From a virus: a stretch of DNA of 44,627 nucleotides. Below, one piece after another: positions 1-44,627 of this stretch (its first letter is position 1; each line of letters opens with the position of its first letter). The DNA lies in the IMG/VR virus record IMGVR_UViG_3300037153_000330, positions 1-44,627 of that record; one strand, written 5' to 3'. The notes below the pieces were generated by a model that saw only the letters and a list, made by a program, of their open reading frames with translations, did not search any database and was not told the DNA's origin. Both the position numbers and the translations under genes were made by a program.

Positions 1-144
1 GGGCTCGAAGTCGATGAGCTCCTGCGGCTCAAGCACATCACCGGATTCGCGCGCCTATTCAAGGACGCCGAGTACGGCCAGGCCTGGGAAACGAGGCGGA
101 TGATTCAGCTACGGAAGGAGTACGAGGCGCGTGACGGAAACTGA
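1..144 (+). CDS. ParB/IbrB-like protein, C-terminal part (second copy of the right-end gene)
   Basis: Reading from base 1 gives the last 47 residues of the protein encoded in full at 44019-44609. The single mismatch changes Thr to Ala four residues before the end. This is not a separate gene: it is the same gene seen again because of the terminal overlap. Its TGA overlaps the first codons of terS by 14 bases. Confidence 0.85.
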   Translation, partial: GLEVDELLRLKHITGFARLFKDAEYGQAWETRRMIQLRKEYEARDGN

Positions 145-162
145 GCCCGACCGCTGCGTATC
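1..162. repeat. Terminal direct repeat, left copy (circular overlap)
   Basis: These bases match 44466-44627 at every position except 127 (G here, A at 44592). The repeat carries the end of the ParB-like gene and the start of terS, so joining the ends gives an uninterrupted gene order. The simplest reading is a circular or circularly permuted genome whose assembly overlaps itself. A true short terminal repeat is less likely, because the repeat boundaries fall inside genes. Confidence 0.9.
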
Positions 163-937
163 GCTGACGGCCTACGGGACGCGCTGCAAGAAGCGGGCGA
201 GCGAGGGCTCGGAGTTCTGCGCCCTGCACCGCAAGGCCGACTACTCACTGCTGACCGACGAGGTCGCGGCGCAGATCATCGCCATGCTGCGCGCCGGCAA
301 CCACGTGCGCACGGCGGTCAAGGCGGTCGGTATCTCGCGCCCGACCTTCGGCGTCTGGATGCGCCGCGGCGCGCGCGGCGAGCAGCCCTACTCCGACTTC
401 CGCGACCGCGTCGACCAGGCACGGGCCGAGGCCGAAGCGCGACACGTCACGCAGGTCGCGGCCGCGGCCTCGCAGGACTGGCGGGCGGCGACCTGGATGC
501 TCGATCGCCAGTTGGAGGGCTCGCCCGACGAGCGCCCGGACACCGATGAGCTTGCGGCCAGGGTCGAGGCCGAGGCGATCGCCGAAGCGCGCGCGACGCT
601 CGATGCGATCGGCGAGGACCCCGAGCTCTCTGCCGGCGCGATCGGCCGCTACGCCGCCGCGATGGTCGTCTGGAAGCTGCTCGAAGCCGACTGGGAACGG
701 CTCGGCAGGCCGGGCACCGCGCTCGGCGGCGCGACCGGCTTCGGCACCGTCGTCCATCCGCTGATCCCGCAGATCGCCTCGGCCCGGCGCGACGTCTCGC
801 AACTGGGCGCGGCACTCGGGCTTGACCCGAACGGACGGCAGCGCCTCTCCCGCCAGGTCGGTGCCGGGCGACCTCCGGGTGCGGCATCGGCTCCCGACCG
901 GGCAGCACCGCCTAGGCGGCGTCTCAGGGCGGTCTAA
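131..937 (+). CDS. terS: Terminase small subunit
   Basis: This 268-residue protein probably recognises phage DNA and loads it on the large subunit for packaging. After a Cys-rich N-terminus (C9, C19, C30, H33; possible zinc knuckle) comes a helix-turn-helix-like stretch, VKAVGISRPTFGVWMRRG, near residues 63-80. A charged helical region follows, then a Pro/Arg-rich tail. The product is supported mainly by the HTH and by its position directly before the large subunit, two bases apart. The GTG start overlaps the ParB-like gene. An identical start is repeated at 44596. Confidence 0.8.
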   Translation: MTETEPDRCVSLTAYGTRCKKRASEGSEFCALHRKADYSLLTDEVAAQIIAMLRAGNHVRTAVKAVGISRPTFGVWMRRGARGEQPYSDFRDRVDQARAEAEARHVTQVAAAASQDWRAATWMLDRQLEGSPDERPDTDELAARVEAEAIAEARATLDAIGEDPELSAGAIGRYAAAMVVWKLLEADWERLGRPGTALGGATGFGTVVHPLIPQIASARRDVSQLGAALGLDPNGRQRLSRQVGAGRPPGAASAPDRAAPPRRRLRAV

Positions 938-939
938 CC

Positions 940-2460
940 GTGACCACATCGGTCGCCGTCGAACGCTGGGCGGCGTATGCGGAAGCGACCCGCTCCGAGC
1001 ACTTCGCCTGGTGGGCGGGCGAGCACTGCATCCAGGCGATCGACCAGTTCGCCGGTCTGCCGCTTGAGCTCGAGCCGTGGCAGATCGAAATGATGGGCGA
1101 GGCACTGGCCGAGGCCGACGAGGATGAGGCCTACTGGCTGACGGTCGTGCTCGTCATCCCGAAGAAGAACGGTAAGACGAGCCTGCTCGCCGCCTACGGG
1201 CTCTACCACCTGCTTGAGGACGAGGGCGCTCCCGAGATTCTGCTCGCGGCGGCGACCGACAAGCAGGCCGGGCGCCTGTTCGACACCGCCGTCCGCTTCG
1301 TACGCTCGAACCCCTGGCTCGCCAACCGGCTGGTCGTGCGCGAGCACGAGGGGATGATCGTGAGGGCGGACGGCTTCGGGGCGCTGCATCGCTTCTCGGC
1401 CGACGGCGGCGCGGCCTCGGGCTACGGGCCGTCGCTGATCGTGGCCGACGAGCTCAAGGACTGGGTCACGCCGCGGCGGAAGCGAGCCTGGTCGGATATC
1501 GCCACCGCCGGCCAGATGGTCCGGCATCAGGTGCACGTGTTCGTGATCTCGACCGCCGGCGAGCCGTCCGAGCGCGTCGACGGAATCCTCGGGCAGCTGA
1601 TCGACCGCAACGAGCTCGAAGGCGAGGTCGAGCGCGTGCACCGGGCGCTGACGGTCAGCCGCAACCACGGCGGGCGGGTGCTGGTCTACAACTACGACGC
1701 TCGCACGCACGACCCGCACGACATCGACGCGATCGAGGCGGCGAACCCGGCCTCCTGGGTCACCCGCGAGAAGCTGATCGCGCTGGCGTCGAACCCGTCG
1801 CTGACGCCCGGGCACTTCCTGCAACTGCACGGCGGCGTGTGGGCGAGCTCGGAAGCGGCCTACCTGGAGCTCGAATCGTGGCGCGAGTTGACTGTCGCCG
1901 ACGAGCTCGCCGCCGGCGACGAGCTCACGCTCGGCTTCCGCGGCGGCGACACCTGCGCGCTAGTCGCCTGCCGGCGAGCCGACCAGGTGCTGTTCGTGCT
2001 CGACGTGTGGGAGAACCTGGGCGCGCAGATCGAGCTCGTGGACGCCGAGAACGTGGACGACGCGGTGCAGGCGATCGTGAGCGAGTACGCCGTCACCGCG
2101 ATCTACGCCTCGGCGACCTCCGAGTGGCAGACGACCGTGCAGGGCTGGCGCAACGAGCTCGGCCGGCGGCGCGTGGTCGACGTCGATGTGGCCCGGCCGT
2201 CGCCGAAGACGGCGGCGATCACGCAACGCTTCAAGGCCGACGTGCTCGCCGGGCGCGTGCATCACGACGGCGATGGTCGGCTCGCCCGCCACGCGATGAA
2301 CGCGCAGGTGGCCCGAGCCCGCAACCTGCCCTACCTGATCGGCGACACGCGCGGCGGACCGATCAGCGCGATCCAGGCGGCGATCCTCGCCTGGGAGGCC
2401 CACGTCCTGAGCGAGCCCGGCGCCGATGATTCCGATCGAGAGGAGTTCTCGTTCCTGTGA
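940..2460 (+). CDS. terL: Terminase large subunit (packaging ATPase/nuclease)
   Basis: This 506-residue motor pumps DNA into the prohead and cuts it. The Walker A motif PKKNGKT is at residues 74-80 and the Walker B motif LIVADE at about 166-171. The C-terminal RNase H-like nuclease region begins near residue 330. One oddity is visible. Related terminases usually read GFDGS at the first catalytic Asp, but here the text is GFRGGDT (R334, D337), so the usual Asp is absent or shifted. The gene overlaps the portal gene by four bases (GTGA). Confidence 0.93.
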   Translation: MTTSVAVERWAAYAEATRSEHFAWWAGEHCIQAIDQFAGLPLELEPWQIEMMGEALAEADEDEAYWLTVVLVIPKKNGKTSLLAAYGLYHLLEDEGAPEILLAAATDKQAGRLFDTAVRFVRSNPWLANRLVVREHEGMIVRADGFGALHRFSADGGAASGYGPSLIVADELKDWVTPRRKRAWSDIATAGQMVRHQVHVFVISTAGEPSERVDGILGQLIDRNELEGEVERVHRALTVSRNHGGRVLVYNYDARTHDPHDIDAIEAANPASWVTREKLIALASNPSLTPGHFLQLHGGVWASSEAAYLELESWRELTVADELAAGDELTLGFRGGDTCALVACRRADQVLFVLDVWENLGAQIELVDAENVDDAVQAIVSEYAVTAIYASATSEWQTTVQGWRNELGRRRVVDVDVARPSPKTAAITQRFKADVLAGRVHHDGDGRLARHAMNAQVARARNLPYLIGDTRGGPISAIQAAILAWEAHVLSEPGADDSDREEFSFL

Positions 2461-12433: not shown

Positions 12434-12778
12434 ATGAGCAAGGCGATCGTGGCCGGGCTGACCGGCTCGCTGCTGCTGGCCGGTTCCTCCGGCTTCCTTG
12501 CCTCGCAGGCTCTGAGCAGCGCGCCCGAGGCGACCCGCACGGTCACGATCGACGTCAGCACCGGGCCGACCGGCCCGCAGGGACCCGCCGGCCCGAAAGG
12601 CGAGCCGGGTGCTCCCGGCCCGAAAGGCGATCCGGGCACTCCCGGCCCGAAGGGCGAGCGCGGCCCGACTGGACCCGGCGGTGAGGCATCGTGCCCGGCC
12701 GGGTTCGAGTTCGGTGATCTCGTGATCAAGCACGGGCACGGACAGGTGACCGTGTTCACCTGCCTGCGGGTGCCGTGA
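12434..12778 (+). CDS. Membrane-anchored or secreted collagen-like protein
   Basis: This 114-residue protein begins with a signal-anchor-like hydrophobic segment (residues 4-27). Residues about 44-83 are 13 Gly-X-Y triplets ([20 protein letters not shown] and on), then comes a small domain with two Cys residues (C87, C110) ending in VFTCLRVP. Triplet repeats form trimeric collagen helices. The position between baseplate genes suggests a trimeric tail appendage or a spanin- or anchor-like accessory. No named family is recognised. Confidence 0.7.
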
Positions 12779-14185: not shown

Positions 14186-14377
14186 TTGCAGATCACGACC
14201 AACATCCAGCTCGAGGTCGATGAGACGCTGGGGCACACCCCCGAGGAGGCGGCGAGCGCGATCCTGACCGCTCTCGGTGGCGACCCCGGTAGTGACTACT
14301 CGGTCGTCTACGTCCAAATGTCGGCCGCGCCCGGCACGGCCGGCACTCCCCCGGAGCCTCCGTCGCCAGATGCCTGA
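14186..14377 (+). CDS. Small baseplate-operon protein, unknown
   Basis: A TTG start ten bases after GAGAGGAG gives 63 residues: a compact alpha/beta-looking N-terminus (MQITTNIQLEVDETLGHTPE) and a Pro-rich tail. It overlaps the next gene by eight bases. No family is recognised. The unusual start codon is chosen because the ribosome site and reading frame support it. Confidence 0.55.
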   Translation: MQITTNIQLEVDETLGHTPEEAASAILTALGGDPGSDYSVVYVQMSAAPGTAGTPPEPPSPDA

Positions 14378-15737
14378 GCTCGCCGATCTGCTCACCGCCG
14401 ACCAGCCGCTGACGCGCAACGTCGTCGCCGGAACGATCGCTGCTCCCGCGCCGACGAGCCCGAGCGATCCGCTCTACGTCACGATCCTGACCTTCGACGG
14501 TCAGCGGCAGTTGTGGGGACCGTGCCCGTGGTCGCCGTCGACGGCGCTACCGGGAGTCGATGACGAGTGCCTGGTGATCTTCGATGAGCGCGAGACGCCC
14601 TGGGTGCTCGTGCTCGCGCCGGTGACCGGCACGGGCGAGCCCGGACCGCCCGGCCCGGAGGGACCTCCGGGTCCGCCGGGCGGCTCTACGAGCGTGGCGG
14701 AATTCATGTTCGACACGCACACGACCGAGCCGCCGTCAGGGAGCGAAGTACGGCTGAACAACGCCACGCAGAGCTCCGCGACGAAGATGTGGGTCAAGTA
14801 CACGACCGTCGACGGCTCCGATGTGACGACCGCCCTGCTGCTGGTCGACTCGTCGGCCAGGGTCTACCTCCAGGACAAGGACGACGCGAGCCGCTGGCAG
14901 GAGTACCAGGTCACCGGCAACGCGATCGACAAGGGCGGCTACGCCGAGCTCCCGGTCAGCTGGCTCGCCGGCGGCGCGCCGCTTCCCGCACAACGCTGTC
15001 TGCTCGGGATCATCCGGCAAGGTGTCCCCGGCCCGGCTGGACCCGCCGGCCCGGCCGGGCCGCAGGGTCCGAAGGGCGACACCGGCGCGACCGGCGCGCA
15101 GGGTCCGCAGGGCGACCCCGGACCGGCCGTCACTCCCGGGGCGAACGGGCAGTTCTACCGCACGGCCGGCGGCGCCGCGGTCTGGCAAACCGGAGTCGAG
15201 GGACGCGATGTGCAGTGGCACACGGGCTCGGCTCCACCCGCCTCACCGCAGGCCGGTGACCTCTGGCTATTGCCGGTGACGAACGCCTACTGGCTGTTCT
15301 GCTACGACCCGAGCGAGCCGAGCTTCAAGTGGAAGTTCATCGGCGGCGGGCCGCTGCGCGGCGGCGTGGCGACCGACGAGACGTTCACGCAGAGCGCGAG
15401 CTACGTCAACGCTGCCACTGTGGCGGCGGTCACCTTGCCGCGATCGGGCGACTACTTCGCGCAGCACGTCTGCGACTTCTACATCTCCGGCCAGACCGCG
15501 GCCGGGACGATGCAGGCGAAGCTGACGATCTCGAACGGCTCGCTGGAGATCAACGACTCCACGATCGCGCAGGCGATGACTCAGACCGGGTTCGCCGTAA
15601 CCGCGAAGGGCCAGGGCGTGAACACCGGCACGGTCGCAGGCGGGACGCTTACGCAGCAGTACCAGGCGGTCGGGCTAGGCGGCACCGCCCACGTCCGCTG
15701 GCGCCAGATCAGCGTCTGGCCGATTCGAGTCGCATGA
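14370..15737 (+). CDS. Collagen-like baseplate spike / tail protein
   Basis: The ATG at 14370 gives 455 residues. The N-terminal 85 residues resemble a small OB-type strand domain (YVTILTFDGQRQLWGPCPW), as in spike proteins. Two Gly-X-Y collagen blocks lie at residues about 89-105 and 218-253, separated by a jelly-roll-like region. The C-terminal 170 residues look strand-rich and receptor-binding. The layout (hub, then spike, then gp25) fits a baseplate spike or a trimeric fibre. The specific role is inferred. Confidence 0.7.
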   Translation: MPELADLLTADQPLTRNVVAGTIAAPAPTSPSDPLYVTILTFDGQRQLWGPCPWSPSTALPGVDDECLVIFDERETPWVLVLAPVTGTGEPGPPGPEGPPGPPGGSTSVAEFMFDTHTTEPPSGSEVRLNNATQSSATKMWVKYTTVDGSDVTTALLLVDSSARVYLQDKDDASRWQEYQVTGNAIDKGGYAELPVSWLAGGAPLPAQRCLLGIIRQGVPGPAGPAGPAGPQGPKGDTGATGAQGPQGDPGPAVTPGANGQFYRTAGGAAVWQTGVEGRDVQWHTGSAPPASPQAGDLWLLPVTNAYWLFCYDPSEPSFKWKFIGGGPLRGGVATDETFTQSASYVNAATVAAVTLPRSGDYFAQHVCDFYISGQTAAGTMQAKLTISNGSLEINDSTIAQAMTQTGFAVTAKGQGVNTGTVAGGTLTQQYQAVGLGGTAHVRWRQISVWPIRVA

Positions 15738-30080: not shown

Positions 30081-31535
30081 ATGACCGAGGTCGTAGGGAC
30101 CGGCCGCACGCCGCGTCCCGCGCACAAGGACCTACGTGCGCTCACTCGTCACTTCAAGTACGGCTATCGCTGGAAGCCGACCGGCGCCGGGCACTGGCGC
30201 TTGACCGATCGGCACGGCAACTACGTCGAGGACTCCGAGGGCAAGGTGATCACCGCCCCGGACAAGCCGAGCCCCGGCGTGGTGCGCTCCTTGCGCTCGC
30301 AGTTGCAGGAGGCGCGGGTGCTCAAGGGCACCGAGCAGCGGGAGGTGCCCGAGGAGATGCGCGAGGCCCGTACCGAGGCCTACCGGGCACTGGCGGCGCA
30401 GCGCGACGAGCGCCGGCAGCAGATCGCGAGCGAGCGCCACAAGCGACTCGCGCAGGTGCTCGCACCGATCGGGCTCGAGACTCCGGGGCTTGCCTCCGAC
30501 CTGGGCTCGGTCGGCGGCGTGGTCGCCCGTGAGCAATTCAAGCGCGAGCTCTCACATGACCTGCTGACGGCGAACGCGCGCCGCGTCTTGAATGCGGCCT
30601 GGACCGAGGATCGCTACGGCGAGGTTTGGGACGCGATGCTCGATCGGCTGGAACGAGCCCCTGACGTGGTCGGCGAGTGGTTCGCGCTCGTGCGCGAGGC
30701 GAAGGGTCTGCCGGCCGACACGGTCGAGGTTCGCCTGCCGAAGGGCGCGCAGGACGACTGGCCGTTCGACGTCAAGCTGCTGCCGCTGGGGGCGCTGTTC
30801 GCCGACGAGGCCTACCAGCGCCCGATCAACTGGATCTTCGTGCGCAAGGAGTCGGCACGCTTCGATCCCTCGCTGGTCGGGACGATCGACGTCGCGCAGC
30901 GAGGGCCGTCGCAGTTCGCGATCCTCGACGGGCAGCAGCGCCGGGAGATCGTTCGCCTGGCGGGCAAGACCTCGATCTTCGCCTCGGTCTACGTCGGGCT
31001 TGACCTGGCGAGCGAGGCTCGCTTCTTCCTGCACAAGAACCGCGACCGCAAGGCCGTGCACCCGTACTACACCTACGTCGCCCGCCTGACCGCGCGCGAC
31101 CCGGAGGCTCTGGCGATCGAGGCGATCGTGAAGAAGTTCGGCTACCGCATGGCGATCGGCGCCCCGCGCGAAGGCCTACCGGACAACATCGCCGCGATCG
31201 CGGCCGTCGAAGCGGCCTACCGGCGCAAGCTCCCGGACGGCTCGGAGGCGCTGACCCCGACCCTGCAAACGCTGCGCGAGGGTGCCTACGGGCGAGCCCT
31301 GGGCACGAGCGCGGCGCTGATCCACGGGCTCTCGATCCTCTACTCCGAGAACGAGAACGGGGCGATCAGCACCGAGCGAATGGTCGACGTGCTGCTCGCG
31401 ATCGGACCCGAGCTCGCGGTCGGCCGTGGCCGTGACCTCGTGCGCCACTCGGGCGGGCAGTTGCAGAGGCGCATGGCCGACGTGCTCGCGGCCGAGGCCC
31501 GCAGCAGTACGAGGCGGAAGAAGACGGCGGCATGA
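30081..31535 (+). CDS. ParB-superfamily nuclease-like protein (DUF6551-type)
   Basis: This 484-residue protein has ALFADEAYQRPINWIFVRKE, then FDPSLVGTIDVAQRG, then FAILDGQQRREIV (residues about 235-300), which is the ParB/sulfiredoxin-like pattern. The rest is helical. Such proteins are common in actinophages. The exact action is unsettled, and DNA-binding or nuclease activity is assumed. The strong ribosome site TTAGGAGG and a TAGACT box at 30030 suggest its own transcript start. Confidence 0.8.
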   Translation: MTEVVGTGRTPRPAHKDLRALTRHFKYGYRWKPTGAGHWRLTDRHGNYVEDSEGKVITAPDKPSPGVVRSLRSQLQEARVLKGTEQREVPEEMREARTEAYRALAAQRDERRQQIASERHKRLAQVLAPIGLETPGLASDLGSVGGVVAREQFKRELSHDLLTANARRVLNAAWTEDRYGEVWDAMLDRLERAPDVVGEWFALVREAKGLPADTVEVRLPKGAQDDWPFDVKLLPLGALFADEAYQRPINWIFVRKESARFDPSLVGTIDVAQRGPSQFAILDGQQRREIVRLAGKTSIFASVYVGLDLASEARFFLHKNRDRKAVHPYYTYVARLTARDPEALAIEAIVKKFGYRMAIGAPREGLPDNIAAIAAVEAAYRRKLPDGSEALTPTLQTLREGAYGRALGTSAALIHGLSILYSENENGAISTERMVDVLLAIGPELAVGRGRDLVRHSGGQLQRRMADVLAAEARSSTRRKKTAA

Positions 31536-36465: not shown

Positions 36466-36747
36466 ATGAGCACGACTGCAACGACGAAGCGCGCGCCGCT
36501 GGCGCTCGCGAAGGGCGTGAAGAACACGCTCGACGGCAGCACGATCGTCCAGGCGAAGGGAAGCGTGCAGCGCCACGTGCTCGCCGCCGGAAGCGAGACG
36601 ACCCTCTGCCGGATCAACACCGCGAAGTGGTCGGCGAAGGCCGAGGTCGCCGATGACGCGACCGTCTCGTGCCCGCTCTGCGCCGATGCCCTCAAGGCCG
36701 AGGCGAAGAAGGCGAAGGACGCGGCGAAGGCCGAGGCCGAGTCGTGA
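36466..36747 (+). CDS. Small basic protein with Cys pair
   Basis: This 93-residue protein has the shared leader CCGAAAGGAAGGA. It has TTKRAPLALAKGVKNTLDG, a central TLCRINTAKW and a SCPLCADAL motif, then an Ala/Lys-rich helix (KAEAKKAKDAAKAEAES). A zinc-binding, nucleic-acid-associated small protein is plausible. Confidence 0.6.
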   Translation: MSTTATTKRAPLALAKGVKNTLDGSTIVQAKGSVQRHVLAAGSETTLCRINTAKWSAKAEVADDATVSCPLCADALKAEAKKAKDAAKAEAES

Positions 36748-37130
36748 GGCAGGCCGCTGGGATCATCACGGTCGCGATCGCCCTGGCGGTCGCGACCGGG
36801 GCGGCGGTAGCCCCGACGGCGCAAGCCGCTCCCCGCTGCACGCTCTACGTGCAGACGATCGACGGCCCGTACAAGGGCTGGCTCGATCGGACCTCGCGGA
36901 CCTCGTGCCCGTTCGCCCGCAACGTCTTTCGCAAGGTCGTGAACGCGGTCGTACGTGCGGGCGGCTCGGGCAACGGGCCTCTGACGATCCGCGCTTACAG
37001 CCCGGTCACGCATCGCAGCTACCGGATGCGCTGCCAGGTGAACGGCGACCTCTACCGGCCGCGTGGGATCAAGGCGATCTGCCGCGGCGGGATCGGCGCC
37101 GGCGTGGCTTTCCGGGCGGTCTCGGCATGA
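36744..37130 (+). CDS. Secreted Cys-rich protein
   Basis: A GTG coupled to the previous gene gives 128 residues. The N-terminus is a signal peptide (GIITVAIALAVATGAAVAPT) with a likely cut near ...AQAA. The mature part has four Cys (CTLYVQ, SCPFARNVFRK, MRCQV, ICRGG). SCPFARNV-type motifs occur in small secreted proteins of actinobacteria. It may act outside the host or at the envelope during lysogeny or lysis; unproven. Confidence 0.65.
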   Translation: MRQAAGIITVAIALAVATGAAVAPTAQAAPRCTLYVQTIDGPYKGWLDRTSRTSCPFARNVFRKVVNAVVRAGGSGNGPLTIRAYSPVTHRSYRMRCQVNGDLYRPRGIKAICRGGIGAGVAFRAVSA

Positions 37131-37816
37131 GTCACAAGGTCGAGGTCTGGCTCAACCGCCAGGAGGACGGCGACGGCCACCTGGCGATCTTCACCCGCCG
37201 GCCGAGCGAGGATGCCTACCGGGTCGGTGACGAGCTCGAGCTCGTGCTGAGCACGACGGTCGAGGCGGGCTCGCCCGATGAAGCCCTTGAGCTCGTGTTC
37301 GCGATGACCAACCGCGGCTCGGGCATCTTCATCGGCGACGAGCAGTACCCGCAGCGATCGCTCAGCGTCGGCGACCTGGTCGTACTCGACGGGCAGCGGT
37401 TCTCGGTCGAGCGGGTCGGCTTCAAGGCCCGCCCGCTGACCGCCCTGCTGATCCCCGTCGAGGGACCCGTCGAGGAGATCGAGCTCGTGCCCGAGGACGG
37501 CTCGACGCTCAAGCAGTTGCAGGAGCTCGTCGGCGGCATGATCGAGGCCGTCCCGCTGCCGGGGTTCATCCCGAACGCGCGCGCGGCCACGAGCTACGTC
37601 AACGAGGAGGGCAAGTTCGGCCAGGAGGTCAACTGGCGGGCGACCGACTTCATGGTGCCCGGCGTCGGCCTGTTCTACGGCGACTGGATCGCCGGGCCAT
37701 TCGTGCTCTGCGGCTTCGACCCCGAGCGCGGCGAGCACGACGTGCTGCCGGCCTCGGTGATCAAGCGAGCCCGGTTGATCGAGGGTGAGGCCAGGACGAG
37801 GGAGGAAACGCGATGA
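37127..37816 (+). CDS. DUF3846-like protein with N-terminal strand domain
   Basis: In this 229-residue protein, residues about 125-210 match DUF3846 (LQELVGGMIEAVPLPGFIPN, then VNEEGKFGQEVNWRATDFM, then DWIAGPFVLCGF). The N-terminal 100 residues are a strand-rich unit. DUF3846 proteins are frequent in actinophages and conjugative elements, with unknown function. Confidence 0.65.
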   Translation: MSHKVEVWLNRQEDGDGHLAIFTRRPSEDAYRVGDELELVLSTTVEAGSPDEALELVFAMTNRGSGIFIGDEQYPQRSLSVGDLVVLDGQRFSVERVGFKARPLTALLIPVEGPVEEIELVPEDGSTLKQLQELVGGMIEAVPLPGFIPNARAATSYVNEEGKFGQEVNWRATDFMVPGVGLFYGDWIAGPFVLCGFDPERGEHDVLPASVIKRARLIEGEARTREETR

Positions 37817-40476: not shown

Positions 40477-40720
40477 CGAGCAGGTCCAGCAGCAGCGCCT
40501 GCACGAGGCGATCGAGGATGCGCTCAACGAGGAGGGCGTGCTCGACGGGCTCGTGCTGGCAGGCTGGGTGATCGCCTACGAGACGGTCGCGCTCGATGAC
40601 GAGGTCACCGCCCACGCCGGCACGATCTACGGGCCGCACGAGATGACCACCTGGCGCGCGCTCGGCCTGATCGAGTGGGCACGGCGCTGGTCACTTGAAC
40701 CCGGGACGCGCGATGAGTAG
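40466..40720 (+). CDS. Hypothetical acidic protein
   Basis: A GTG overlapping the previous gene by 11 bases gives 84 residues: an acidic coiled N-terminus (EQVQQQRLHEAIEDALNEEG) and a strand-helix end (WVIAYETVALDDEV). Upstream of HNH. Unknown. Confidence 0.55.
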   Translation: MDADEQVQQQRLHEAIEDALNEEGVLDGLVLAGWVIAYETVALDDEVTAHAGTIYGPHEMTTWRALGLIEWARRWSLEPGTRDE

Positions 40721-41159
40721 GCGCACGCCACATCTCTGCGCCGAGCCTGGCTGCGGTGTCGTACTACTCGATGGGCCGGGGCGCTGCCCCGCTCATGGCA
40801 GTCGCTCGGGGACGCCTGGCTACGGCGGACGCTGGCGTCGACTGCGCGATCGCTACATCGCCGAGCATCCGACCTGCGAGGCCGAGGACGAGGAGGGCAG
40901 ACCATGCGAAGCGCGAGCCCGCGACGTGCATCACCTGGACGGCGCCAGTCCCGGCGACGCCACCTTCTACGACTGGGCGAACCTGAGCTCGCGTTGCCTG
41001 CCCTGTCACCGGCGCGACACCGTTCGCCTGGCGAGGCAACGGGGCGGGGGACAACCCCCTCGCCCAATGAGCAAAAGGGCTGCTCGTTTCGTCATCAAGC
41101 CGGAAATCGCACCGCGACCGCCTCGCCGCCGGGTGGCGGCTAACGTCCATGCCCGCTGA
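40713..41159 (+). CDS. HNH endonuclease
   Basis: ATG 40713 gives 148 residues. The sequence C-x-EDEEGRPCEARARDVHHLDG holds the HH of the HNH core, then DWANLSSRCLPCHRRD gives N, the zinc Cys pair and the final H. Its N-terminus has another Cys pair (CAEPGCGVVLL). HNH proteins next to terminase genes are needed for packaging in several phages, so a packaging role is likely. Confidence 0.88.
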   Translation: MSRRTPHLCAEPGCGVVLLDGPGRCPAHGSRSGTPGYGGRWRRLRDRYIAEHPTCEAEDEEGRPCEARARDVHHLDGASPGDATFYDWANLSSRCLPCHRRDTVRLARQRGGGQPPRPMSKRAARFVIKPEIAPRPPRRRVAANVHAR

Positions 41160-41751
41160 GCGCGTTGCCGCCGCTGGCGACAGTCGCTGGACGACGCGGA
41201 TCGTGGATCACGGCGAGGCGAGCCCGAGCGAGCTCGTCGGCAACCCGCGCAACTGGCGCCTGCACCCGCGGCACCAGTCGGACGCGCTCACCGCTGCGCT
41301 CGATCGAGTCGGCTGGGTCCAGCCGGTGATCGTCAACCGGCGCTCGGGGCACCTGATCGACGGTCACCTGCGGGTCGCGCTGGCGCTCAACCGGGACGAG
41401 CCGGTCGTGCCCGTCGACTACGTCGACCTGAGCGAGGAGGAGGAGCGGGTCGTGCTCGCGACGCTCGACCCGTTGGCCGCGCTCGCCGGCACGGACGAGG
41501 GCGCGCTCAAGGGACTGCTCGCCACGCTCGAAGGTGAGCTCGACGCCGCCCTGGCGAAGGTGATGGACGACCTGACCCGGGCCGACGGCTCGGCGGCATC
41601 GGCGCTGCCGAGCCAGGAGGAGATCGACCAGCGGGCGGCCGAGCTCGAAGCACGCTTCCAGGGTCGGCCGCACAACATGGCCGTGCTGATCTGTCCCGAG
41701 TGCGGGCACGAGTTCCAGGTCAACGTGGCCGAGCTCACCGGCAAGGGCTAA
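41149..41751 (+). CDS. ParB-like nuclease-domain protein with zinc end
   Basis: This 200-residue protein shows a ParB-type pattern: DHGEASPSELVGNPRNWRLH, GWVQPVIVNRRSGHLIDGHL, then VPVDYVDLSEEEERVVL. Similar N-termini occur fused to adenine methyltransferases, but no methylase motif is present here. The end, LICPECGHEFQ, is a half zinc-binding unit. It overlaps the HNH gene by 11 bases. Confidence 0.75.
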   Translation: MPAERVAAAGDSRWTTRIVDHGEASPSELVGNPRNWRLHPRHQSDALTAALDRVGWVQPVIVNRRSGHLIDGHLRVALALNRDEPVVPVDYVDLSEEEERVVLATLDPLAALAGTDEGALKGLLATLEGELDAALAKVMDDLTRADGSAASALPSQEEIDQRAAELEARFQGRPHNMAVLICPECGHEFQVNVAELTGKG

Positions 41752-41782: not shown

Positions 41783-42091
41783 ATGGGGCTCACTCACGAC
41801 CAGATCGCCGAGTTCGTCGCTTCCGCCGGCTGGAAGTTCGCCTCCTCGATGCCGCACCTGCCGCACGAGTACGTGCTGCGCGGCAAGCCGACCGCGGGCA
41901 GGCCTGCGCTTCCGGTTGAGCAGCATGACGCCTTCGCCGCCCACATCGCCGAGCATGGCTACGAGGGGCGATTCTTCGGCCGCAGCTACCGCTACTTCGA
42001 CCACGACGGCTGGAAATACTGGGTCGTGGACGACGTGATCAACCGTGAGCGCCTACCCGAGGAGGAACCGGATGCCGGTGATCAAGCCTGA
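41783..42091 (+). CDS. Hypothetical aromatic-rich protein
   Basis: This 102-residue protein has MPHLPHEYVLRGKPTAG and a dense aromatic stretch (FFGRSYRYFDHDGWKYWVVD). It ends with an acidic tail and overlaps the dioxygenase-like gene by 20 bases. Proteins of this general look occur in many phages; the function is unknown. Confidence 0.55.
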   Translation: MGLTHDQIAEFVASAGWKFASSMPHLPHEYVLRGKPTAGRPALPVEQHDAFAAHIAEHGYEGRFFGRSYRYFDHDGWKYWVVDDVINRERLPEEEPDAGDQA

Positions 42092-42641
42092 CGAGTACGA
42101 GCTCTCCGGTGACCAGCGAGCGTTTCCGCTCGTGTGGGTGGAGCAGTTCAGCGAGGTCGTTCCGTCGATCGACGTCTCGGACGCGATGCTCGAACGGGCC
42201 TTCGGGCCGGGCACATCGCGCAAGCTCAAGTCGTGGGGGCACTCCGGCCCGGTCGGGGTGCACTGGCTCGCGACGCGCTCGGGGACGCCGATGCACACCG
42301 ACCCCGCCTACTCGCGCTACACGCACCACCTGATCCTCCGCAACGACGGCTTCCGCCTGCGCGGGCTCGAGGATCGGCCGGACTCGATCATCCTGCGACC
42401 GGGCGCGTTCTACTGTCTCGATGCCCACTCGCCGCATCAGGTCGTGGAGGACAAGCGGCTGAGCTCGCTGCGACTCGATAAGCCGGTCTACAAGCTGCAG
42501 GTCGCGTTCGACACCGACGAGCCCTGGTCGCCGGGTGATGCGATCGCGATCCTGTTCGACAAGCTCCACGACGACCCCAACGAGGGCGCCGAGGCGGCGG
42601 CGAAGACGGCACCGGCTCCGCGCTCCGGGGCGCGGCCGTGA
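42072..42641 (+). CDS. Putative Fe(II)/2-oxoglutarate dioxygenase-like protein
   Basis: ATG 42072 follows GAGGAGGAA and gives 189 residues. MHTDPAYSRYTHHLILRNDG gives an HxD pair (H75, D77), and LRPGAFYCLDAHSPHQV gives a distal His (H122; H118 also near), the metal triad pattern of 2OG oxygenases. A basic residue to hold 2OG is probable but not certain. It could hydroxylate a protein, base or small molecule. It lies between small genes and the PAPS-reductase-like gene. Confidence 0.65.
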   Translation: MPVIKPDEYELSGDQRAFPLVWVEQFSEVVPSIDVSDAMLERAFGPGTSRKLKSWGHSGPVGVHWLATRSGTPMHTDPAYSRYTHHLILRNDGFRLRGLEDRPDSIILRPGAFYCLDAHSPHQVVEDKRLSSLRLDKPVYKLQVAFDTDEPWSPGDAIAILFDKLHDDPNEGAEAAAKTAPAPRSGARP

Positions 42642-42690
42642 TCGAGAACCGCAGCCAGTGGACGCATTTCCTCATCTACTGGCGTCGGCC

Positions 42691-42834
42691 GTGAGGGACG
42701 GCCTCTACCGGGTCGTGACCCCGCACTTCGTCGCAGGCTTCGTGATCAAGGGCGGCAAGGTCAAGGCCTGTGCACCGATCCTGCGCCGGATGCTCCCCTA
42801 CTGGGCGCAACGGGCTCGCTGGATCGCCGACTAA
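42691..42834 (+). CDS. Short actinophage-type conserved protein
   Basis: A GTG start gives 47 residues: LYRVVTPHFVAGFVIKGGKV and then RRMLPYWAQRARWIA. Short proteins with this pattern are common in actinophages and have no known role. GTG 42658 is an alternative start. Confidence 0.6.
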   Translation: MRDGLYRVVTPHFVAGFVIKGGKVKACAPILRRMLPYWAQRARWIAD

Positions 42835-42843
42835 GGAGCGACC

Positions 42844-44022
42844 ATGCCGGCCAGACCGAAGCGCCCGATCACGGGCGCGGGCCTTCGCATCTACTCGGCG
42901 CAGTCGGTCGTGGACGCGGCCTACGAGCGGATCGAGTGGATCATGCGCGAGTTCGGCCGGCAGGTGGTCGTGCGCGTCTCGGGCGGGAAGGACTCGACCG
43001 TCATCCTGGCGATCGCGCTCGCCGTCGCGCGCGAGCTCGACCTCCTGCCGCTCAAGGTCTACTGGCTCGACCAGGAGGCCGAGTGGGACTCGACGGTCGA
43101 GATCGTGCGCGAGTGGATGTACCGCGACGAGGTCGAACCGCTCTGGCTGCAAGTCCCGTTCCGCATCTTCAACGCGAGCTCGCAGTACGACCACTGGCTC
43201 AAGGCCTGGGACCCGGATGCGGCCGATCGCTGGATTCACGAGCGTGATCCGATCGCGCTGACCGAGAACGTCTACGGCACCGATCGCTTCGTCAAGTTGT
43301 TCGGCGCTTCGCTCGCCTACCACCTGGGCGAGCGGCCGGCGGCGTCGATCGCCGGCGTGCGCTGCGAGGAGTCACCGAACCGGAGGAAGGGGCTCACTCA
43401 TCACACCTCCTACAAGTGGGTGACCTGGGGGAACGTCGAGGACAAGAAGCTCGGCCACTACACCTTCTACCCGATCTTCGACTGGCACTACCGCGACGTC
43501 TGGAAGTTCATCTTCGAGCGCGGGCTGCGCTACTCGACGCACTACGACACGCTCTACCGCGCGGGCATCGACGTGAGGCATATGCGCGTCTCGAACCTGC
43601 ACCACGAAACGGCCGTCAATTCGCTGTTCCAGTTGCAGGAGTTCGAGCCCGACACCTACGACCGGCTCGTGGCACGCATCGGCGGGATCGACATGGCCGG
43701 GAAGCTGGGCGCGGCCGACTACTTCCCGAGCGAGCTCCCGTTCATGTTCGAGGACTGGCGCGACTACCGCGACTACCTGCTGGCCGAGCTCGTGGACGCC
43801 GAGTACCGCCCCTTCCTGGCGAAGCTGTTCAACGAGACCGATCGCAAGCTGCCGGCAAGCGTGCTCGCTGAGTCGTATCGGATCGGGGTGCGCTCGATCC
43901 TGACCTGCGACTGGGAAGGCGTGAAGTACGGCAACTGGCGCCAGAGCCCGCACATCTACCACCTGCTGCGCGACAACCGGCCGCACTGGAAGACGGTCGA
44001 GGAGGTTCCGATCCAGGCATGA
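42844..44022 (+). CDS. PAPS-reductase-family protein (IbrA/DUF3440-like)
   Basis: This 392-residue protein belongs to the PP-loop ATPase family. The signature SGGKDST is at residues 46-52, followed by PLKVYWLDQEAEWDSTVEIV. A second part has GVRCEESPNRR and YPIFDWHYRDVWKF (residues about 170-225), matching the IbrA/DUF3440 group. It lacks the typical PAPS reductase C-terminal ECG[I/L]H, so sulfonucleotide reduction is uncertain. It overlaps the IbrB-like gene by four bases. Confidence 0.85.
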   Translation: MPARPKRPITGAGLRIYSAQSVVDAAYERIEWIMREFGRQVVVRVSGGKDSTVILAIALAVARELDLLPLKVYWLDQEAEWDSTVEIVREWMYRDEVEPLWLQVPFRIFNASSQYDHWLKAWDPDAADRWIHERDPIALTENVYGTDRFVKLFGASLAYHLGERPAASIAGVRCEESPNRRKGLTHHTSYKWVTWGNVEDKKLGHYTFYPIFDWHYRDVWKFIFERGLRYSTHYDTLYRAGIDVRHMRVSNLHHETAVNSLFQLQEFEPDTYDRLVARIGGIDMAGKLGAADYFPSELPFMFEDWRDYRDYLLAELVDAEYRPFLAKLFNETDRKLPASVLAESYRIGVRSILTCDWEGVKYGNWRQSPHIYHLLRDNRPHWKTVEEVPIQA

Positions 44023-44609
44023 GCGCACACGAGCTCGTGATCGAGAAGTTCGACCTCTCCGGCGAGCCGGTCGCGAACGTGCTCTGGGTCCCGATCGAGC
44101 AGGTCGAGGCGAACGACTACAACCCGAACCGGGTCGCCGCCAACGAGCTCCGGCTCCTCTACCACTCGATCCGCCACGACGGCTACACGCAGCCGGTCGT
44201 GACGATCTACGACGAGCCGCGCGACCTGTACGTGATCGTGGACGGCTTCCACCGCTGGCTGGTGATGAAGCGTCACTCGGACATTCGCGAGCGCACCGGC
44301 GGGCGACTGCCGATCGTGGTGATCGACAAGCCGATCGCCGAGCGCATGGCGTCGACCATCCGCCACAACCGGGCGCGCGGGAAGCACTCGGTCGCCGGGA
44401 TGAGCCAGGTCGTATTCGCGATGCTTGACGAGGGCGTCAGTGACGAGCGGATTTGCGCCGAGCTGGGGCTCGAAGTCGATGAGCTCCTGCGGCTCAAGCA
44501 CATCACCGGATTCGCGCGCCTATTCAAGGACGCCGAGTACGGCCAGGCCTGGGAAACGAGGCGGATGATTCAGCTACGGAAGGAGTACGAGACGCGTGAC
44601 GGAAACTGA
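44019..44609 (+). CDS. IbrB-like ParB-domain protein
   Basis: The 196-residue protein has a ParB-type nuclease/DNA-binding core: VPIEQVEANDYNPNRVAANE, then SIRHDGYTQPVVTIYD, then YVIVDGFHRWLVMKR and TIRHNRARGKHSVA. A C-terminal HTH-like end (VSDERICAELGLEVDELLRL) follows. With the PAPS-reductase-like gene it forms the IbrA/IbrB pair known in E. coli. Its end repeats at the start of the window and overlaps terS by 14 bases. Confidence 0.85.
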   Translation: MSAHELVIEKFDLSGEPVANVLWVPIEQVEANDYNPNRVAANELRLLYHSIRHDGYTQPVVTIYDEPRDLYVIVDGFHRWLVMKRHSDIRERTGGRLPIVVIDKPIAERMASTIRHNRARGKHSVAGMSQVVFAMLDEGVSDERICAELGLEVDELLRLKHITGFARLFKDAEYGQAWETRRMIQLRKEYETRDGN

Positions 44610-44627
44610 GCCCGACCGCTGCGTATC
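44466..44627. repeat. Terminal direct repeat, right copy (circular overlap)
   Basis: Identical to bases 1-162 except A44592 versus G127. See the left copy. The presence of a mismatch shows that the two ends come from slightly different reads or molecules. Confidence 0.9.
44596..44627 (+). CDS. terS: Terminase small subunit, N-terminal fragment (repeat of terS start)
   Basis: The first ten codons of the small terminase gene appear again before the window ends. The complete gene is at 131-937. The fragment shows that the circle closes here. Confidence 0.8.
   Translation, partial: MTETEPDRCV

Follow-up and report, generated by a model that had tools for sequence, protein, structure and literature searches.

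A recurrent phage cassette of IbrA, IbrB and a predicted oxygenase that may modify phage DNA

The virus record analysed here (the window, 44,627 bases in its full length) carries terminase, portal, major head, tail-sheath and baseplate genes, which were found by PHROG profile search. End-to-end sequence comparison showed that positions 1-162 repeat positions 44466-44627 with one mismatch; therefore, the record closes as a circle and the genome is approximately 44,465 bases long. A strict end-repeat test would overlook this 162-base redundancy with its single mismatch. Upon closure, IbrB directly precedes the terminase small subunit gene and overlaps its start. The same junction is uninterrupted in contig L002. 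The initial annotation, which had placed the module beside the terminase, thus holds for the circular genome but not for the linear record, where the terminase lies at the opposite end.

The right end of the window encodes, all in the plus direction, an HNH endonuclease-like protein, ParB1, orf102, a predicted oxygenase (OXY), a short ORF, IbrA and IbrB (ORF list; Table 1). The oxygenase-like, PP-loop and IbrB-like genes of the initial annotation are therefore real and share one direction, and the HNH gene and second ParB-like gene reported upstream of them are also present, while orf102, a small conserved gene, had been overlooked. The tight overlaps noted at that time apply to IbrA and IbrB, which share 4 bases, but not to OXY and IbrA, which are 202 bases apart with the short ORF in between. 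The HNH gene occupies the same position in the near relatives L002, L003 and L005. One of the two PHROG families matched by ParB1, phrog_498, carries the name DNA methyltransferase. The structure model of orf102 is confident (pLDDT 92.9), and a fold search with it against the PDB gave no significant match. Glycosyltransferase and methylase profiles run on the window also gave no match, and this phage lacks the GT25-like glycosyltransferase gene of its relatives; as the genome is closed, this absence is probably genuine. Elsewhere, the window encodes a 484-residue protein with a ParB/DUF6551-like region at its C-terminus (30081-31535) and a 387-residue protein with DUF3846 (36653-37816).

Table 1. 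Cassette and terminase genes, in positions of the window
Feature	Position	Strand	Evidence or remark
HNH endonuclease-like gene	40713..41159	+	phrog_144 2e-18; upstream border of cassette
ParB1: ParB-like, C-terminal zinc ribbon (CxxC)	41149..41751	+	phrog_620 2e-18; phrog_498 2e-18
orf102: small conserved protein	41783..42091	+	motif FAxxMPxxPHxY...KYW...INR
OXY: predicted non-haem iron oxygenase	42072..42641	+	HxD...H, predicted double-stranded beta-helix
Short ORF between OXY and IbrA (HFVAGFVIKGGKVKACAPILRRM)	42691..42834	+	sequence only
IbrA: PP-loop ATP-pyrophosphatase, PAPS-reductase/DUF3440 family	42844..44022	+	PF01507, PF11922, phrog_2302 1.5e-71
IbrB: ParB/sulfiredoxin-fold protein	44019..44609	+	phrog_2159 4.7e-74
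Terminase small subunit gene start	44596..44627	+	overlaps IbrB; repeated at 131; terminal redundancy; continuous in L002
Terminase small subunit, full gene	131-937		phrog_4102 / phrog_9 evidence for terminase pair
Terminase large subunit	940-2460		directly after small subunit; phrog_4102 / phrog_9 evidence for pair

IbrA matches PF01507 (6e-14, 52.9 bits against a cut-off of 22.5) and PF11922/DUF3440 (6e-7, 29.8 bits against a cut-off of 25), both above the curated Pfam cut-offs, and its SGGKDST PP-loop spans residues 46-52, in agreement with its initial identification as a PP-loop IbrA/DUF3440 protein. Its identity to E. coli YbdN is 27%. An alignment of 106 distinct IbrA sequences shows conservation of the PP-loop and further polar positions but of no cysteine, the highest cysteine column reaching at most 54%. 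IbrB is 45% identical to E. coli YbdM over 166 residues, and this homology and its position directly after IbrA place it in the IbrB/YbdM family, as first assigned. Its match to ParB_N lies only at the cut-off. The IbrB motifs NxYNPN, DGxHR and RHNRARG are nearly invariant in 139 sequences, as would be expected of a nucleotide-using ParB/sulfiredoxin-type protein. A search for domain fusions between the cassette families found a single case, one IbrB-IbrB ORF. Among 50,697 GenBank phages, IbrA occurs in 206 records and IbrB in 218.

The family name of IbrA, together with the treatment of phage PAPS reductases and cysH as metabolic genes in virome papers (PMC8879888, PMC10914622), would make it a sulfate-assimilation enzyme of the cysH-like auxiliary type. 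Alternatively, it could belong to a Dnd-like phosphorothioation system, in which a PAPS-reductase-fold enzyme (DndC) is likewise paired with a ParB-superfamily protein (DndB), and weak IbrA profile matches to CysH and DndC point the same way. Sulfur transfer and phosphorothioates had also been proposed in the initial annotation. However, the lack of a conserved cysteine in 106 IbrA sequences argues against sulfur transfer, sulfate assimilation, and CysH- or DndC-type chemistry alike. An assimilatory PAPS reductase of the CysH type was rejected because it needs a catalytic cysteine and no IbrA cysteine column exceeds 54% (n=106). A cysteine dyad is characteristic of DndC (PMC10853773), and Dnd phosphorothioation was rejected because IbrA shows no conserved cysteine pair. 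Profile search found no DndA-type gene in this record, and DndD gave no match above the cut-off in 15 records; the DndE search gave no match in the record, nor in the control genomes. Moreover, the partners of IbrA are ParB, oxygenase and, in relatives, glycosyltransferase genes, not sulfur genes. These results make either sulfur role very improbable, and the initial proposal did not survive in this respect.

The start ATG of OXY is preceded by AGGAGG. With residues numbered from the one after the start methionine, H74, D76, R81, D116, S119, P120, H121 and D146 are invariant in 42 relatives. These include the HxD...H metal triad of Fe(II)/2-oxoglutarate oxygenases (H74, D76 and H121; 42/42 sequences), which confirms the motif initially read in this gene, and an invariant basic residue, R81, which is only a candidate for 2-oxoglutarate binding. 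The structure model (pLDDT 76) best matched AspH-type oxygenases and cupins in Foldseek (E 1.6e-4, TM only about 0.3), the top match, again with a low TM-score, being the protein hydroxylase AspH. A beta barrel of the cupin/2OG-oxygenase type is thus predicted. Searches against Pfam, PHROGs, NCBIfam, PADLOC and PDB sequences assigned OXY to no family. It had no match among the 50,697 GenBank phages and one in 84,980 prokaryotic genomes, on a 5.5-kb metagenome-assembled contig. Within the sensitivity of these scans, the OXY-bearing cassette therefore appears to belong largely to uncultured viruses.

The cassette genes were found together whichever family was used for recruitment. Recruitment with IbrA only gave 69 viral loci, nearly all with IbrB just downstream. 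The 67 viral loci recruited with OXY only contained IbrA in 64, a ParB-type gene in 64, a GT25-like glycosyltransferase in 54 and orf102 in 39. Recruitment with a closer subset of the glycosyltransferase family only gave 80 loci, which have some contigs in common with the OXY set, and IbrA was present in 75, a ParB-type gene in 77, orf102 in 60 and OXY in 40. Two of the three OXY loci without an adjoining IbrA (L077 and L120) lie on contigs that carry IbrA elsewhere (L006 and L042). On the contig of the nearest relative (L077 and L006), OXY and an IbrB-like gene stand together, IbrA lies about 18 kb away, and GT25 is on the opposite strand. When all IbrA loci were pooled (n=198), 183 had IbrB, and a further ParB-like gene was present in 172.

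The commonest order in the OXY and glycosyltransferase sets is ParB1-orf102-GT25-OXY-IbrA-IbrB, with neighbouring genes that touch or overlap (median gaps near -4 bases, between -8 and 0). The OXY loci form 39 clusters at 70% identity and belong to 19 backbone groups; of 2211 pairs of OXY loci, 1595 have no flanking ORF in common. As the flanks mostly differ, the cassette is a conserved unit, and common descent of whole genomes alone does not explain the linkage across varied backbones. The co-occurrence on which the initial annotation had staked its proposal was thus found, and its compact module describes the near-fixed, tightly spaced gene order well.

Loci without OXY often have a second, methyltransferase-like family between GT25 and IbrA. 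In L144, L146, L164, L190 and L194, a family of this kind that starts with YHSAL takes the place of OXY. Other IbrA/IbrB loci instead carry DNA-methylase-like, acetyltransferase, arginine-decarboxylase or radical-SAM genes. The DNA-methylase-like proteins near IbrA match PF01555, and 10 of 40 members of the GT25 family match PF01755 (best 1.2e-6); all glycosyltransferase and methylase-like ORFs counted lie within 5 kb of IbrA, in loci that reach only 10 kb per side. A pyruvoyl-dependent arginine decarboxylase (PF01862), which is a possible amine supplier, stands beside IbrA/IbrB in 9 loci (e.g., L024:2345-2842 and L055:12365-12844), and a radical SAM gene (PF04055) was found nearby in 11 loci (e.g., L031:5715-6431). 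An SNF2-type helicase adjoins IbrA/IbrB in Streptococcus phages, Flavobacterium phages and one Listeria record. In a Listeria record (L214:3800-7568), the SNF2-type helicase, IbrA, ParB and a methyltransferase are consecutive, a possible cellular relative. In the cultured Microbacterium phages Leaf and Rasputia, IbrA lies at one genome end and is preceded by two or three genes annotated as glycosyltransferases, together with an acetyltransferase and a methyltransferase gene. In Microbacterium phage Hendrix, the only GenBank phage in which the GT25 family was found, the corresponding stretch contains a GT25-like gene and genes for a glucosyltransferase, a methyltransferase and an N-acyltransferase, and at the opposite genome end three ParB-like genes are followed by the terminase.

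Modification chemistry is the best reading of the module. The proposal that IbrA and IbrB are the core of a type of phage cassette, of which this is one form, and that they modify phage DNA during infection has about an even chance of being correct. It is favoured by the reciprocal linkage, the conserved order, the varied backbones, the company of decorating enzymes, the near absence of OXY from cellular genomes and a PP-loop protein without conserved cysteines. The methylase-like and ParB company, together with the position next to the terminase, makes DNA the favoured target. IbrA would use ATP to activate (adenylate) a substrate, and IbrB, as a nucleotide-dependent partner of the ParB/sulfiredoxin type, may bring it to DNA, so that the two would modify phage DNA bases before packaging. 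OXY would act next, placing a hydroxyl on the modified base or on its side group. In relatives, a GT25-like glycosyltransferase or methylase-like, acetyltransferase or amine-supplying enzymes may add further decoration; without the glycosyltransferase, the product in this phage would be the hydroxylated form. The likely purpose would be escape from host nucleases. Of the modification chemistries first suggested, hydroxylation fits this scheme, as does glycosylation in relatives, but sulfur transfer does not. In a more specific, speculative and itself unlikely version, adenylation of a base carbonyl by IbrA would let an amine or amino acid side group be joined to the DNA base; this group would be hydroxylated by OXY and the hydroxyl glycosylated by a GT25 enzyme, yielding undescribed bulky bases.

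Several observations weigh against DNA modification. IbrA/IbrB are present on plasmids and the E. coli chromosome without decorating genes, and ParB-like proteins are common in phages. The oxygenase step has against it the weak fold match of OXY (TM about 0.3) and a 2-oxoglutarate-binding residue that is only a candidate. IbrA and IbrB might instead mainly regulate phage gene expression, the other genes being incidental. Annotation and literature name the pair as co-activators, E. coli IbrAB being described as a co-activator of prophage genes, and IbrB is ParB-like. This explanation is nevertheless unlikely, given the near-fixed order with enzymes across unrelated backbones and the catalytic-type motifs in both proteins, and regulation could itself result from DNA modification.

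The oxygenase and glycosyltransferase could also act on a phage protein, such as a collagen-like tail protein. Collagen hydroxylases and GT25 enzymes modify collagen in animals and giant viruses, the top Foldseek match of OXY is a protein hydroxylase, and this phage encodes two collagen-like proteins with GXY repeats (window 12434-12778 and 14277-15737). The former protein has a hydrophobic N-terminal stretch. In small samples uncorrected for relatedness and completeness, collagen-like genes were found in 10 of 25 OXY records and 3 of 22 IbrA records without OXY (p 0.056), and likewise in 6 of 7 OXY records without GT25 and 4 of 18 with it (p 0.007). However, they are absent from 15 of the 25 OXY records, and the low count in those with GT25 (4/18) is the reverse of what collagen glycosylation would predict. 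A protein target, which would leave the linkage with IbrA and ParB unexplained, is therefore improbable. About equally improbable is a tRNA or rRNA target, for which ATP activation by the PP-loop protein, as in lysidine and thiolation pathways, would be followed by base hydroxylation and glycosylation. PP-loop ATPases are classic tRNA-modifying enzymes, and an amine, comparable to agmatine in archaeal tRNA, could come from the arginine decarboxylase encoded next to IbrA in some loci. In contrast, the methylase-like neighbours match DNA methylases, DNA-modification loci repeatedly feature ParB-type partners (PMC12839542, PMC12783734), and the cassette sits by HNH and terminase genes.

DNA modification by the cassette can be compared with known systems. 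E. coli IbrA/IbrB and K-12 YbdN/YbdM belong to the same two families, and YbdN/YbdM show the same order and overlapping genes; in contrast, ybdNM lack an adjoining oxygenase, orf102 or glycosyltransferase. Dnd differs in the absence here of a conserved IbrA cysteine, of DndA in the record and of DndD above the cut-off, in place of which stand the oxygenase and, in relatives, a glycosyltransferase. In TET/JBP oxygenase and glucosyltransferase pathways, a base is hydroxylated and then glycosylated. The relatives of this cassette would work by a similar two-step logic, but OXY belongs to no assigned family and this phage has no GT25-like gene. Phage loci for carboxymethylcytosine (CmoX) also cluster a core base change with decorating enzymes, and ParB-domain genes often lie near that base-modification pathway (PMC12783734), whereas the core enzymes here are IbrA and IbrB, and CmoX was not among the matches of the genes scanned.

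The literature searched contained no description of the cassette, in line with the initial view of an undescribed system, although most subscription journals were outside its coverage and a prior account could be missed. Some of the phage PAPS-reductase or cysH genes that virome studies assign to sulfur metabolism may be of the IbrA type. Both the gene company of IbrA and the absence of a conserved cysteine point to a role of this class outside sulfur metabolism, though virome studies widely count PAPS-reductase genes that way. If IbrA does adenylate a base carbonyl, many phage "cysH" genes would be DNA-modification genes, and bulky bases would occur in widespread uncultured phages. DNA modification can be tested directly in the cultured Microbacterium phages, which carry a related gene set. 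If the cassette modifies DNA, its chemistry would be common among phages and would involve undescribed bases, which bears on escape from restriction and on new DNA-modifying enzymes.
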